From positions 62,001 to 126,000 of the forward strand of contig JABDIN010000029.1 of assembly GCA_013003715.1 (NCBI GenBank): a DNA stretch of 64,000 nt, read 5' to 3'. The stretch is from Desulfobacteraceae bacterium. GTDB taxonomy: Bacteria > Desulfobacterota > Desulfobacteria > Desulfobacterales > Desulfosarcinaceae. The notes below the pieces were generated by a model that was not told the DNA's origin, ran no database searches, and saw only the letters and a list, made by a program, of their open reading frames with translations. Below are positions 26,211 through 31,628 of this stretch, one piece after another. The position numbers and the translations under genes were made by a program. The number at the start of each line of letters is the position of its first letter. The stretch's first letter is position 1.

Positions 26211-27542
26211 TCACAAATATGGGCGTGTTGTAAAATAATTGATACGATTAAGTTTTGATACAGCATACAAAGGCAAATTCAAAATCTTCCCATTTTGCTT
26301 CAAGTTTAACAGGTTCGTGCGAATCAGCGTTTGCGGATTGAATTGCGAGTCATAGGAGGTCAGGCTTTTGCTTTTCGGGTTGATACCGGCCTTGACCTCA
26401 AGCGGATAAACCTGGGTATCGCCTTCTATGAGAAAATCCAATTCCGCCCTTCCCCCTTTGCTTCGCCAGTAGAATAATGGCTTTTCACAATGAGCTACGA
26501 GCTGCTGGGTTGCGTAGTTTTCCGTCAGCGCACCCTGGAGTTCATTGAATAGCTGTTTGCCCTGCACCATCAATTCCACGGGTAAACCGGCCATGGCGCC
26601 AAGCAAACCGATATCGAGGGCATAGACCTTAAAACACGAACGATCCGCATAAAATTTCAGGGGATGTTCCGCTTTTGCAACCGCATGAACCCTGTGAATC
26701 AATCCCGCATCTTCCAACCAGACAATTGCGTTTTCATAAGTTTTGCCGCGAGCACCTTTTTTAAGGGCCGAAAAAATGAATTTTTTATTCTCTCTGGCCA
26801 AATGACCGGGGATGGAGTCCCATATAAGGAAAAGCTTGGATACCTCTGCCGATGGTGCATGTTTAACAAAATCCAGCACGTACGATTTTATGATTTCATT
26901 TTGTATCCGGCGGGTTTCGCTTACATTTTTTGTTTCGATATACTGCTGCACAGCCTCAGGCATCCCACCAACAACAAAATATTGCCGCAGCAAGTCAATC
27001 AGGTGTTCGTGAAATAGCGCATTGAACGGGATGGGCTTTTTTGCGCTGTCAATTAATTGTACATAGCGCTGCTCACCCACGGCTTCCAGATATTCAAGAA
27101 ACGTCATGGGATACAAGTGCAGATAATTAACTTTTCCAACAGGAAATGAGCCGGGCTGTGAGAGTTTGATACCCAGAAGCGAGCCGGCAGCCGCAATGTG
27201 AATATCATTTCTTTTTTCACAAAAATATTTGAGAGAATTCAACGCCGAATTTGATATTTGGATCTCATCAAAAATCAGAAGATCCTTTTGGGGTCTGATG
27301 GGGTGGCCAAGAAATAGTGATAGGTCAGCAAGAATCCGGTCCGGGTTTAAATCCTGAGAGAACAATTGATCCAATCCGGATGTTTCCTCAAAGTTACAAT
27401 AGATGACAGTTTCATATTCACGACGACCAAATTCCTGCAACAGGTATGTTTTACCGGTTTGACGCGCCCCTTGCATCAACATTGGCTTTCTTGCGGTCGA
27501 TTTTTTCCATTGAACCAATTTTTCGTATATATGCCGTTTCAT
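26211..27542 (-). CDS. AAA ATPase with C-terminal DUF4143 domain
   Basis: This 443-residue protein is of the AAA_14/DUF4143 family. Walker A is MLMQGARQTGKTYLL, Walker B LLIFDEIQ, sensor IAAAGSLLG, and the C-terminal DUF4143 region ends in a nuclease-like pattern (AELDFLIEG..VYPLEVKAG, resembling the ELDFl..g......EvK motif of the PD-(D/E)XK fold). The family is widespread, often mobile, and its cellular role is not established. Base composition is more AT-rich than neighbours, suggesting acquisition. Its 5' end and leader carry repeated TTTTCGT motifs. It stands alone between two rightward units. Confidence 0.85.
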   Translation of the reverse strand: MKRHIYEKLVQWKKSTARKPMLMQGARQTGKTYLLQEFGRREYETVIYCNFEETSGLDQLFSQDLNPDRILADLSLFLGHPIRPQKDLLIFDEIQISNSALNSLKYFCEKRNDIHIAAAGSLLGIKLSQPGSFPVGKVNYLHLYPMTFLEYLEAVGEQRYVQLIDSAKKPIPFNALFHEHLIDLLRQYFVVGGMPEAVQQYIETKNVSETRRIQNEIIKSYVLDFVKHAPSAEVSKLFLIWDSIPGHLARENKKFIFSALKKGARGKTYENAIVWLEDAGLIHRVHAVAKAEHPLKFYADRSCFKVYALDIGLLGAMAGLPVELMVQGKQLFNELQGALTENYATQQLVAHCEKPLFYWRSKGGRAELDFLIEGDTQVYPLEVKAGINPKSKSLTSYDSQFNPQTLIRTNLLNLKQNGKILNLPLYAVSKLNRINYFTTRPYL

Positions 27543-27624
27543 GTACGAAACTATGGCATAAAATGGTAATCATGTCAAATTTTCGTACATACTTTTGTAC
27601 TATGGACCATTTTTTCGTGTATAT
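27519..27624. promoter_or_regulatory. repeated TTTTCGTxxATA motifs at the start of the AAA ATPase gene
   Basis: Three direct copies read TTTTCGTATATAT (27520 region), TTTTCGTACATAC (27580 region) and TTTTCGTGTATAT (27612 region). An inverted copy ATGTACGAAA (27541-27550) begins at the start codon and pairs perfectly with TTTCGTACAT (27581-27590). Spacing is 30-60 bases. It could be an operator array for autoregulation (inference). Confidence 0.45.
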
Positions 27625-27924
27625 TTTTGTCGATAACTACATTTTCATGCTCGATAAATGGTATGCATAAAAATGGAAGGCAATCGAAAACTTGTAAACA
27701 TACCAATTCCGGGTAGAATAGAAATCGGTGCCCCCCCTTCATGAAGAAAACGAATTTCGCATCTGCTTTATCAATAGATCCGGGGCAACATTGCAAGGTG
27801 TATTCTATGCACCATTGTGTATTCCAGCTTAATGTTTTTGATGCGTAAAACGCACCCTACCTTGAGATGCCTGTTCTTTTCCAATCGATTTCCGTATCCC
27901 CGCAACTTGTGATATACCCGGCCC
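27625..27924. other. AT-rich intergenic stretch without recognised features
   Basis: This 300-base part of the divergent gap between the AAA ATPase and the NusG-II gene shows no gene, hairpin or promoter that I would defend. Confidence 0.5.
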
Positions 27925-28320
27925 ATGACACCTGCCACCGCCAAACCACCGAAACGCTCCCTATCCCCAATGGATGTTCTGATCGGAATATCCGTTATCC
28001 TGTTCGGTTGTTATTGGCTGATGATAAGGGATCATGGGGAAGCTGTTGAAAGAAAAGCGATGATTTTCAAGGATGATGTTATCATCCGGCAGGTGCCAAT
28101 GGATTCGGAGGGACTTATCGATCTGGAATCCCATGGCGTTTCCATGGTTCTGGAAATCCGTGATGGGAAGATACGGGTGGTATCCTCCTCCTGCCGCCAG
28201 CAGATCTGTGTGCGCAAGGGATGGACCGGACAGGTTCATGACCCCATTGTATGCGTCCCAAACAATATAATCGTAGATATTACAGGAAACGATGCGGAAT
28301 ATGACGCCATCAGCCGCTGA
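27925..28320 (+). CDS. NusG domain II-containing membrane-anchored protein
   Basis: This 131-residue protein has one N-terminal membrane segment (about residues 18-35, VLIGISVILFGCYWLM) and a NusG domain II-like soluble domain. The characteristic end is SSSCRQQICVRKGW, then PIVCVPNNIIVDI, with three conserved cysteines. Proteins of this type are regularly encoded directly before Gx-transporter genes, as here, where the next gene starts 29 bases before this stop. The function is unknown; the pairing suggests a membrane complex, in some genomes near flavin-linked electron-transport genes. The alternative ATG at 27970 is just before the membrane segment. Confidence 0.75.
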   Translation: MTPATAKPPKRSLSPMDVLIGISVILFGCYWLMIRDHGEAVERKAMIFKDDVIIRQVPMDSEGLIDLESHGVSMVLEIRDGKIRVVSSSCRQQICVRKGWTGQVHDPIVCVPNNIIVDITGNDAEYDAISR

Positions 28321-29494
28321 CAGGGCCGACATTTCGGGGAAGATACCGCTTCTGGTGGCCACGGCTTCCATTCTTCAGATATCGGAATCCATGCTTCCCC
28401 ACCCGGTTCCGGGACTCCGATTCGGACTGGCCAACATCGTTTCCCTGATCATCCTGGTTCAATATGGATTTAAACCGGCGCTCACCGTGACGCTGCTGCG
28501 TATCGTGGTCAGCTCCTTTATTATTGGCACCTTTCTATCCCCGGGATTCATGCTCAGCTTTGCCGGCGGGCTTGCGAGTATTTCGGTGGCAGGCATTTTG
28601 AGCCGGATCTCAGACAGATTTCCCGTGTTCAGGATCAGTCCCGTGGGGCTGAGCATTGCGGGCGCATTCATCCATAATATGGTTCAGCTTTATCTGGCCT
28701 ACCTCATGCTGATCAAGCATCCGGGAATTTTCTTTCTCATTCCCTGGCTGGCATTCGGTTCCGTCATATTGGGAGCGGTTTCCGGATTTATTGCATCGGG
28801 AGTCATAAAGCAGCTGACGGCGAATGGAGAGGCTGTATCGGTATCAGTGCAATCGAAACCGGCCTATAAAAACAGGACATATCAACCTGGCACCTCATGG
28901 CTTCATACCTGCCGCCCTGAAATCAAATTCACCGCTATTCTGGGTGTCACACTGATGATCGTGCTGATTGAATCACTGGTACTTTACGGTGCCCTGTTTA
29001 TCATCATCCTGATACTTGTTCCCACAACAGGGCTCCGGTATAAAACCACGTTTCATGTGATAAAACGAATCAGCCTGATCGTACTCAGCTCTTTTCTTCT
29101 ACCCGTTTATTTCAATTCAGGAACCCGGATTTTAGTTGAAACCGCATACTATACCCTACACCAGGAGGCGTTTATCACGGGATGTGTATTTGCCACACGT
29201 ATCGTCATTCTCGCCCTGATATCCTCAATATTGGCACAAACCACCCGGCCCGATGCGATAACAGCAGGCATCCGAACATTTATCAGGCCATTTGACCGGG
29301 TCGGTATGAACAGCAGCACCATTGCCCAAATCCTTTCCGACTCACTCCGGGACCTGCCGAAAGTCTGGCATGAAATTCGGTCTGCCATGGCCGCCCTGTT
29401 AAAAGGCAGAAAGCGCAATATTAAAACGCTGAAACTCGTGGTTACAGAATTATTTGTTTATGTTTTTTCAACCAAAAACGGCAGACCCCGATAA
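28292..29494 (+). CDS. Gx transporter (Hpre_diP_synt_I) fused to an EcfT/CbiQ-like membrane domain
   Basis: This 400-residue protein joins two membrane modules. Residues about 15-175 match the Gx transporter family, an S-component-like protein once named heptaprenyl diphosphate synthase component I (LPHPVPGLRFGLANIVSLI, LLRIVVSSFIIGTFLSPGF, GAFIHNMVQL). Residues about 205-390 resemble the EcfT/CbiQ transmembrane coupling protein (RPEIKFTAILG, then several helices, then SSTIAQILSDSLRDLP). The Ala-Arg-Gly coupling motifs of EcfT are not seen. AGGAAACG precedes the ATG, which overlaps the NusG-II gene. No ECF ATPase is nearby. The transported compound is unknown. Confidence 0.78.
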   Translation: MRNMTPSAADRADISGKIPLLVATASILQISESMLPHPVPGLRFGLANIVSLIILVQYGFKPALTVTLLRIVVSSFIIGTFLSPGFMLSFAGGLASISVAGILSRISDRFPVFRISPVGLSIAGAFIHNMVQLYLAYLMLIKHPGIFFLIPWLAFGSVILGAVSGFIASGVIKQLTANGEAVSVSVQSKPAYKNRTYQPGTSWLHTCRPEIKFTAILGVTLMIVLIESLVLYGALFIIILILVPTTGLRYKTTFHVIKRISLIVLSSFLLPVYFNSGTRILVETAYYTLHQEAFITGCVFATRIVILALISSILAQTTRPDAITAGIRTFIRPFDRVGMNSSTIAQILSDSLRDLPKVWHEIRSAMAALLKGRKRNIKTLKLVVTELFVYVFSTKNGRPR

Positions 29495-29509
29495 CAGTGT
29501 CTGCCGTTT
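29476..29509. terminator. bidirectional terminator hairpin
   Basis: AAACGGCAGAC (29476-29486) and GTCTGCCGTTT (29499-29509) form an 11-base-pair stem with a 12-base loop that contains the stop codon of the Gx-EcfT gene. It lies between two convergent genes and has A/T runs on both sides. Confidence 0.75.
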
Positions 29510-29528
29510 GGAATTGATGAGTAAATAC

Positions 29529-31130
29529 CTATTTAATGGTGATCCTGCCAAACGTCTTTGGTGATATATTCCCGCCGACACTCACAACATAATCAATGAA
29601 GGCGTCTCTTTGCATCATCGATGAATCATAAAAATCCCCGCCATTTTTAAATATTTTATATCCGTCACCACCTGCCGCCAGGTACGAATTCAGGGCAATG
29701 GTATAGGTCTTGGACGGATCAACCGGACTGCCGCCGATCTGCAGGTTTTCCACCTTACCGGTGCTCTTATTGATGGTGAACGTCACCCCATCGGAAACCT
29801 GGGGCATGGCGCCCTGACCGACATTTGCGGGGGTCTGGTTGAAAAGGGCGATCACATCATCGCCTTTCAGGGAGACCACGCAGATCGAATTGTCAAAGGG
29901 CAATACCTCATAAACCGTTTTCTTCTGAATATCCCCCGATCCCAGTGTCGCCCGGATACCGCCGCCGTTCTGGAAAGCAAAATCGATGTCAAATCCCATT
30001 TTTTTCATGTACCACAGTTGGGAATCCGCCACGATGTCTCCCAGGGCCGTCTCCTGCTCCCTGGTCTTGTCATTGATAAACGCCTGGTCCGCGGATCCGA
30101 TGACTTCGCTTAAAACCTTTTCCACCTCATCCTCATACGGTTTCAGCATCGCCAGAAGAGTTTCATCCTCCTTGAGTTCCTTGTCCACAAAATGGTAGAT
30201 GGACTTACCGTCTTTTTTATCTCTCCGTTTCAAGTTTACCGGAACGGAGGACCAGTCAAGGCCGGTCACATCACCATCTTTGAAACGGAGCACTGCTTTA
30301 CCCATGTAAAGCCCCCAATGCTTGGCCTGGACAATCCTCACCGGTTTACCCGTGATGATATTTCTTACAATTTCCGGTTCATCCAGTTTGGTATGGGTAT
30401 GGCCGTCGATCACAAGGGCTATGTCGGGGACTTGAGTGGCAAGCCGTTTCGACCCCATATCAGGATCGTCATAGATCCCCATATGAACCACGGCAACGAC
30501 GATATCCGCTTTTTTCTTTAATTCCGGAACCAGCTCCATGGCGACCTTGACTTCGTCTTCAAAAACAATGCCCTTAATATTCTCCGGATTTCCGGTGAGG
30601 GCGGTTTTGGAGGACACCAGTCCGAATACGGCAACCTTGAAACCATCATACTTTTTAATGATATAGGGTTTGACATTGTCCAGATATTTGCCGTCTATTT
30701 TCGCATTGGCGCACAACCACGGAAACGCCGACGCTTCGATCTGTGCCTGCATACCCGCCATATTCAGATCGAACTCATGATTACCAAGGGCAAGGGCATC
30801 ATATTTAATATAGTTGTACCCTTTGATATCCGGCAGCGCCTTGAAAAAATTGGATTCCGGCCTTCCGGTATTCATGTCACCCGCATCAACCACCAGCACA
30901 TTCGGATATTCGGCCCGGACATCGTTCACCAGTGTTGCACGGGCCGGAAGCCCGCCCTGCCCCGGACTGGGATAATCATAAAAGGCCAGCGGGTGGCCGT
31001 GATGGTCATTGGTGTGTAAAACAACCAGTTCATTTTCAACGTCACTGGGTGTATAACCCGACAAACCCGCACATCCGGCCATCACCAAAACCGCCAGAAA
31101 CATTACCGATAAACATCGAAATTTTGTCAT
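29529..31130 (-). CDS. 5'-nucleotidase/2',3'-cyclic phosphodiesterase lipoprotein (UshA-like)
   Basis: This 533-residue secreted metallophosphatase has a lipoprotein signal (lipobox VMAGC near residue 19). The catalytic domain shows HTNDHHGH, VVDAGDMNTG, GNHEFD, VVAVVHMG and VIDGHTHTKL. The C-terminal substrate domain has the nucleotide-binding FQNGGGIRATL and LAAGGDGYK. It is expected to dephosphorylate extracytoplasmic nucleotides, feeding nucleoside and base uptake, which would fit the base permease and pyrimidine genes elsewhere in the window (inference). AAAGGAAAG precedes the ATG. Confidence 0.9.
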   Translation of the reverse strand: MTKFRCLSVMFLAVLVMAGCAGLSGYTPSDVENELVVLHTNDHHGHPLAFYDYPSPGQGGLPARATLVNDVRAEYPNVLVVDAGDMNTGRPESNFFKALPDIKGYNYIKYDALALGNHEFDLNMAGMQAQIEASAFPWLCANAKIDGKYLDNVKPYIIKKYDGFKVAVFGLVSSKTALTGNPENIKGIVFEDEVKVAMELVPELKKKADIVVAVVHMGIYDDPDMGSKRLATQVPDIALVIDGHTHTKLDEPEIVRNIITGKPVRIVQAKHWGLYMGKAVLRFKDGDVTGLDWSSVPVNLKRRDKKDGKSIYHFVDKELKEDETLLAMLKPYEDEVEKVLSEVIGSADQAFINDKTREQETALGDIVADSQLWYMKKMGFDIDFAFQNGGGIRATLGSGDIQKKTVYEVLPFDNSICVVSLKGDDVIALFNQTPANVGQGAMPQVSDGVTFTINKSTGKVENLQIGGSPVDPSKTYTIALNSYLAAGGDGYKIFKNGGDFYDSSMMQRDAFIDYVVSVGGNISPKTFGRITIK

Positions 31131-31265
31131 GTTCTTTCCTTTCAGTTCTATGTTTTCAATGGGCGTGAAGAAATTCCCTTAGATAAATGCTTCAGACCAC
31201 CATTCGGGGTCTTTGTTCATAATTCACCGTTGTCCCGGATAGCGGCGAAACAAAGGTCCGGCAGG

Positions 31266-31628
31266 TCACTCATCCCGGTGAACGGTTTCCGGTGTAAACG
31301 CCGGACGGCAAACCGCTATATATTCCGCCCCCTCCGCTGAAGGGGTGCTGTATTGCACCCATTCGTTCGCGTTGACGACGATGGCTTGTCCGGCAAGTAC
31401 ATCAACAACACCACTTTTTGACCTTACCTGCAAGCTACCTTTCAGCACGATGGTATACTCTTCAAATTCGGGCGTTTGCCCAGGTTCCTGCCATCCCGGC
31501 GGGCTTGTCATCCTGGCGATGCTCAGCGCCGTCGTTCGTGTATTTACACAACCGACGAATTCTTCGATTATTTTCGGTTTGTTGCCGGCGGATTCGATTA
31601 TGGTTGGTTTTTCAATCAGTGTCACCAT
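31266..31628 (-). CDS. cupin domain protein
   Basis: This 120-residue protein has a single cupin fold. The first motif region is PGWQEPGQTPEFEEYTIVLKGSLQV and the second AGQAIVVNANEWVQYSTPSAEGAEYIAV; glutamates are visible, but only weak metal-histidine content, so metal binding is uncertain. I chose the ATG at 31628, preceded by GGAGG at an 11-base distance; an ATG at 31652 is possible. It resembles small cupins that bind a metabolite or act as isomerases. No partner gene is evident. Confidence 0.72.
   Translation of the reverse strand: MVTLIEKPTIIESAGNKPKIIEEFVGCVNTRTTALSIARMTSPPGWQEPGQTPEFEEYTIVLKGSLQVRSKSGVVDVLAGQAIVVNANEWVQYSTPSAEGAEYIAVCRPAFTPETVHRDE

Follow-up and report, generated by a model that had tools for sequence, protein, structure and literature searches.

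The best described relative of the protein considered here is the flavin exporter of Listeria monocytogenes. In the passages of PMC9973259 available to us, Listeria EetB is described as binding FAD and resembling the S components of ECF transporters, and EetB, the T component FmnA and the ATPases EcfA and EcfA' are all needed for ApbE-type flavinylation when no FAD is added. FmnA shares EcfA/A' with RibU-EcfT, eetA adjoins EetB in 3,328 genomes, and deletion of EetA in Listeria gave no phenotype (PMC9973259). The same passages list proteins that carry EetB and ECF-T domains in a single chain, such as WP_021725833.1, and a fusion of EetB with a T component is therefore not new as such. RefSeq names the Listeria eetB product "flavinylation system FAD exporter subunit EetB" and that of fmnA "FAD export ECF transporter transmembrane subunit FmnA".

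Coupling between T component and ATPase has been described for BioN, where, according to the sections of PMC3246461 consulted, the ATPase is in contact with both Arg motifs; replacing one arginine lowers ATPase activity, and no complex forms once both are replaced. A 2025 review of ApbE, as far as its text was available (PMC12052999), calls the route by which FAD reaches the periplasmic flavin transferase still obscure, and notes that the ApbE reaction yields AMP.

A fused EetB and EcfT/CbiQ gene

The window (the whole 64,000-nucleotide stretch of DNA that was analysed) contains on its forward strand a single uninterrupted reading frame of 400 residues at 28292-29494. Its S half (28301-28810, forward) belongs to EetB/PF07456, a family of FAD-binding ECF S components: PF07456 matches residues 21-169 with 121.5 bits (3.7e-35; Pfam cut-off 30), and the stretches GL(A/S)N and HNxxQL are common to Listeria EetB. 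The T half (28889-29494, forward) is of the EcfT/CbiQ type, FmnA-like, and shortened in its coupling region. Residues 201-389 match PF02361 at 1.2e-11 and 45.1 bits (Pfam cut-off 25), and the C-terminal half exceeded the PF02361 cut-off again in a whole-genome profile search (47.6 bits); the NCBIfam equivalog threshold for ECF_T_CbiQ is not reached (21.9 vs 111.8). A phmmer search with the T half alone found the solved EcfT chains 5d3m_D (4.5e-10), 4hzu_T (1.7e-5) and 4huq_T (about 2e-5). These matches end at about residue 168 of 200, which is the start of the coupling region. A preliminary description of this DNA had read the frame as an S-component-like Gx transporter joined to an EcfT/CbiQ-like domain, a reading borne out by the profile searches on both halves, including the CbiQ kinship of the C-terminal one.

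The linker between the halves (28811-28888, forward) is poorly conserved, with 40% identity over 25 residues to the relative L020 (see below), and is probably cytosolic from its K/R content; the K/R pattern would place the C-terminal tail in the cytosol too. A structure model of the fusion made from two sequences had a mean pLDDT of 42.7 and was unusable.

The gene is preceded by EetA (27925-28320, forward), a NusG domain II membrane protein of 131 residues (PF07009 1.7e-21, 76.8 bits), as the preliminary description had it. The true start of the fusion is more likely the ATG at 28301, because L020 begins there (MTLSAAD) and overlaps its upstream gene to the same extent. Further upstream, an AAA_14/DUF4143 ATPase gene (26211-27542, reverse) has an amidohydrolase (dihydropyrimidinase-like) gene on one side and the EetA-fusion pair on the other. 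On the other side, a strong hairpin at 29468-29517, with no strand assigned, covers the stop codon of the fusion and the greater part of the 34 bases that separate it from a convergent gene, and is probably a shared terminator; its energy of -19.9 kcal/mol (z -4.1) was reached by none of 200 shuffles. The convergent gene (29529-31130, reverse) encodes a lipoprotein-like 5'-nucleotidase of the UshA type (PF02872 2.6e-36, PF00149 2.6e-17). An Rfam scan of 27000-31500 found no FMN riboswitch or other element, and promoter and terminator scans at the locus were at about chance level.

We then looked for relatives. PF07456 occurs in 11 of 389 genomes of the class, the window genome included, always in frames of 363 to 446 residues, and PF02361 recognises the T domain in nine of these 11 (the window and eight further genomes). 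Since the remaining 378 class genomes have no PF07456, the fusion is not a general route. The nine fusions come from eight genera of one order and share the same shortened form. A profile of their T halves, run against 389 genomes of the order, returned the same nine at 270-332 bits; below these, scores fall under 80 bits, where frame lengths of ordinary T proteins begin. A tree built from 41 EetB domains groups the nine in a single clade (support 98/94) and places three divergent EetB proteins (G063, G235 and G421) elsewhere on long branches. The first two of these are from the class, and G421, with a frame of 388 residues, is from elsewhere in the phylum. Their C-terminal halves were unrecognised by the PF02361 genome search, and a Pfam scan of one of the three did not recognise a T domain either. 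An hhalign comparison with the nine T halves gave a probability of 4%, with one block at E 0.0098; because of this low probability kinship to T is unproven, and the three were excluded from the motif counts given below. Across the phylum PF07456 is found in 47 of 395 genomes, where, in a comparison by frame length, only the window genome and G421 have frames above 360 residues, the next longest being 322. No relative of the fusion was found in viral contigs, and no PLSDB record covered 80% of the query.

The relative L020, on a Desulfosarcinaceae MAG contig, is 59% identical to the window fusion. Between the two, dN and dS are about 0.22 and 1.48 for the S half and about 0.43 and 1.82 for the T core, ratios that are rough because the dS values are high, and dS is not computable for the linker and tail; there is no stop codon or frameshift. 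The eight further class genomes, together with this constraint, indicate that the window fusion is more than a product of chance.

Loss of the ATPase-docking end

An alignment was made of the nine fused T halves, Listeria FmnA and the single PF02361 proteins of the 12 fusion genomes, 23 in all. Listeria FmnA has both Arg motifs (RARG and EARG); aligned to it, the window T half has KGR at the first site and lacks the second altogether, and the remark in the preliminary description that no Ala-Arg-Gly motifs were visible therefore stands. All 23 single T proteins have an Arg/Lys centre at site 1 and a basic centre at site 2, in each case followed by a small residue. In all nine fusions site 2 lacks its basic centre and site 1 its small third residue; six of the nine keep Lys or Arg at the centre of site 1 (LKK/FKK/FRK). 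From site 1 onwards the fusions have 29-58 residues, compared with at least 73 in the single T proteins; site 2, its helix end and the final hydrophobic TM helix are absent from all nine. Of the 23 single T genes, 21 have an ABC-like frame within 1.5 kb; of the nine fusions, none does. In short, the TM core is recognisable as that of Group I/II ECF T components (BioN, CbiQ, EcfT), but unlike in these the coupling region is shortened and the second Arg site gone.

Because the docking sites are degenerate or lost, and in view of the BioN mutants, tight coupling to an ATPase in the known way is unlikely. Judging by the retained basic centre, it is possible that some of the fusions still contact an ATPase at site 1. 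We found no report of the loss of the second Arg motif and last TM helix, or of the degenerate first motif, in open-licence PMC text, the published EetB+T fusions being compared here by domain make-up alone.

The window genome encodes two ECF ATPases, one beside CbiQ (contig C98) and one beside a BioN-type T component (contig C4), the latter with a BioY-like gene close by. The T units that adjoin these BioM- and CbiO-type ATPases keep both Arg motifs, and the ATPases are therefore fitted to full motifs. No third obvious ECF ATPase was seen among 85 ABC matches, which were not individually classified. The absence of an ATPase thus holds for the locus and for the docking motifs, and fails for the cell as a whole, where the suggested genome search for distant ECF ATPases found these two.

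In two of the genomes with an EetB-T fusion a PF02361 domain is also part of a frame of 527-536 residues (L100, L103), which has some 350 residues besides the domain. An ABC motif lies close by, and these frames are probably T-ATPase fusions.

Gene neighbourhoods and a possible role in flavinylation

EetA is beside 11 of the 12 fusion loci, the twelfth being broken off by a contig end, and ApbE beside seven, with two of the other five likewise broken off; the genomes are mostly drafts, so that a missing neighbour is weaker evidence at a contig end. A query for ECF ATPases gave no matches at the 12 loci. FMN_bind genes lie beside several of them, and neither ApbE nor FMN_bind is adjacent at the window locus. 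The window genome has one ApbE, on contig C68, and three FMN_bind genes, each found on reading the translations to lie in an Rnf/Nqr-like cluster. These three clusters (L063, L064, L065) each have an FMN_bind subunit, and the sole ApbE is elsewhere.

In four relatives (L021, L022, L023, L026) EetA and the fusion form a cluster with eight-heme-type, three-heme and b561-type cytochromes, a porin, ApbE, an FMN_bind protein and an OmcA/MtrC-like cytochrome. Parts of this OmcA-type cluster are present in L024, L025 and L028, up to the contig ends, and Pfam confirms its members in L023 and several of them in other loci. The FMN_bind proteins of the fusion clusters contain an SGATxS-like stretch, which we take to be the flavinylation site. 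Taken together, the genes suggest a flavinylated system for extracellular electron transfer; the literature passages seen contained no description of an EetB-T/OmcA cluster. In the phylum at large, ApbE is near 11 of 19 other PF07456 loci (from the 47 genomes), and a few of the 19 have EetB without EetA or ApbE.

The locus thus resembles the Listeria exporter in its PF07456 S component, ECF T domain and EetA neighbour and, at seven of the 12 fusion loci, in the ApbE context, and differs in that Listeria has S and T in separate genes, a T component with both ARG motifs, and a requirement for EcfA/A'. With the published single-chain proteins it has in common the joining of EetB and ECF-T domains. 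The suggestion in the preliminary description of an unrelated membrane complex can be dropped, the domains being EetB, an FmnA-like T and EetA, all of a known flavin-export system (PMC9973259).

Both halves, the EetA partner, the clade-wide conservation and the loss of the second docking motif and last TM helix can be read directly from the sequences. From these we propose, as a fairly probable reading, that the fusion is an FAD translocator of the EetB-FmnA type for periplasmic flavinylation, uncoupled from ATP or unusually coupled to it. It would deliver FAD beyond the cytoplasmic membrane, chiefly to ApbE, which would attach FMN to periplasmic redox proteins: the Rnf/Nqr-type subunits in the window genome, and the FMN_bind protein in the related clusters. 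By analogy with its family, the S half would bind FAD in the cytosol and carry it across the membrane, with the T half presumably serving as a tethered membrane platform. Tight coupling of the FAD step to ATP is improbable, given the missing or degenerate docking motifs and the lack of an ATPase gene in the vicinity; the step may instead be pulled by consumption of FAD outside, ApbE releasing AMP. Transport independent of ATP is an inference, and an uncertain one. A solitary S component, BioY without BioMN, was reportedly the subject of work by Finkenwirth in 2013 and Hebbeln in 2007. For solitary BioY, too, ATPase-independent function of an ECF membrane part has been proposed, and the fusion might operate in a comparable way, although BioY is a biotin importer and has no T half. 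The reference list of PMC4820897, a source seen in part, includes precedents for such ATPase-free membrane parts.

The 5'-nucleotidase could also cleave FAD outside and add to the pull. Cleavage of FAD after export is possible from the adjacency of the two genes; a partial relative of the nucleotidase lies upstream of EetA in L030, and nucleotidases of this kind are found at two of the 12 fusion loci in all. In Shewanella, according to parts of PMC8475336, Bfe exports FAD and UshA cleaves it, a parallel to the window arrangement that is suggestive only. The exporters themselves are unrelated. Bfe belongs to the MATE type.

The alternative that weighs most is that the fusion works as a normal EetB-FmnA exporter, driven by ATP, and borrows BioM or CbiO through the basic patch at site 1. 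Both types of ATPase are present in the window genome, six of the nine fusions keep the basic centre, and in Listeria EetB export does require EcfA/A', which FmnA and RibU-EcfT hold in common (PMC9973259, in part). Yet all nine fusions lack the last TM helix and site 2 with its helix end, the T units of BioM and CbiO have full motifs, and the 85 ABC matches, though not individually classified, offered no obvious third ATPase; we regard borrowing as unlikely. Less probable still is a protein that transports nothing and instead binds flavin as a membrane scaffold or sensor for the extracytosolic electron-transfer machinery. Such a role would agree with the lost ATPase docking, with the clustering with cytochrome b, OmcA and porin, and with the tight pairing with EetA, whose deletion in Listeria had no effect, but conservation is higher in the S half, which still has the family stretches, and flavin supply in Listeria requires EetB (PMC9973259, same passages).

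That the T half is a relic decaying after the fusion is very improbable: the shortened C-terminus and the unrecognised C-terminal halves of the three divergent proteins would suit it, but the T core shows constraint against L020 with its frame intact, and nine genomes of eight genera have kept the same shortened form. The finding came from one assembly, and the preliminary description had allowed for a sequencing error separating two normal genes. A missing stop codon or an indel that joined two such genes has a negligible probability, the same fusion being present in independent genomes, and sequencing error was rejected on the long frame carried by 11 of 11 class genomes with PF07456.

On the reading we prefer, that of an FAD translocator with loosened or altered ATP coupling, the fusion is a candidate route for FAD in Gram-negative bacteria related to sulfate reducers, and it links EetA/EetB to OmcA-porin clusters outside the Firmicutes. 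It is also an experiment of nature on the ATP requirement of ECF-type export, because the docking end of T is gone and the rest is under constraint; the motif-testable fusions number nine, all from one order. More tentatively, a Desulfobacterota clade may have made an ECF flavin exporter once driven by ATP into a self-contained, ATPase-independent FAD exporter by fusing S and T and shedding the docking end, with FAD consumption at the periplasmic flavin transferase of an OmcA-type extracellular electron transfer cluster as the driving force.

The three divergent, long-tailed EetB proteins (L017/L029, L018/L030 and L079) are possibly a second, more degraded T fusion; that of G063 adjoins ApbE and an FMN_bind protein.
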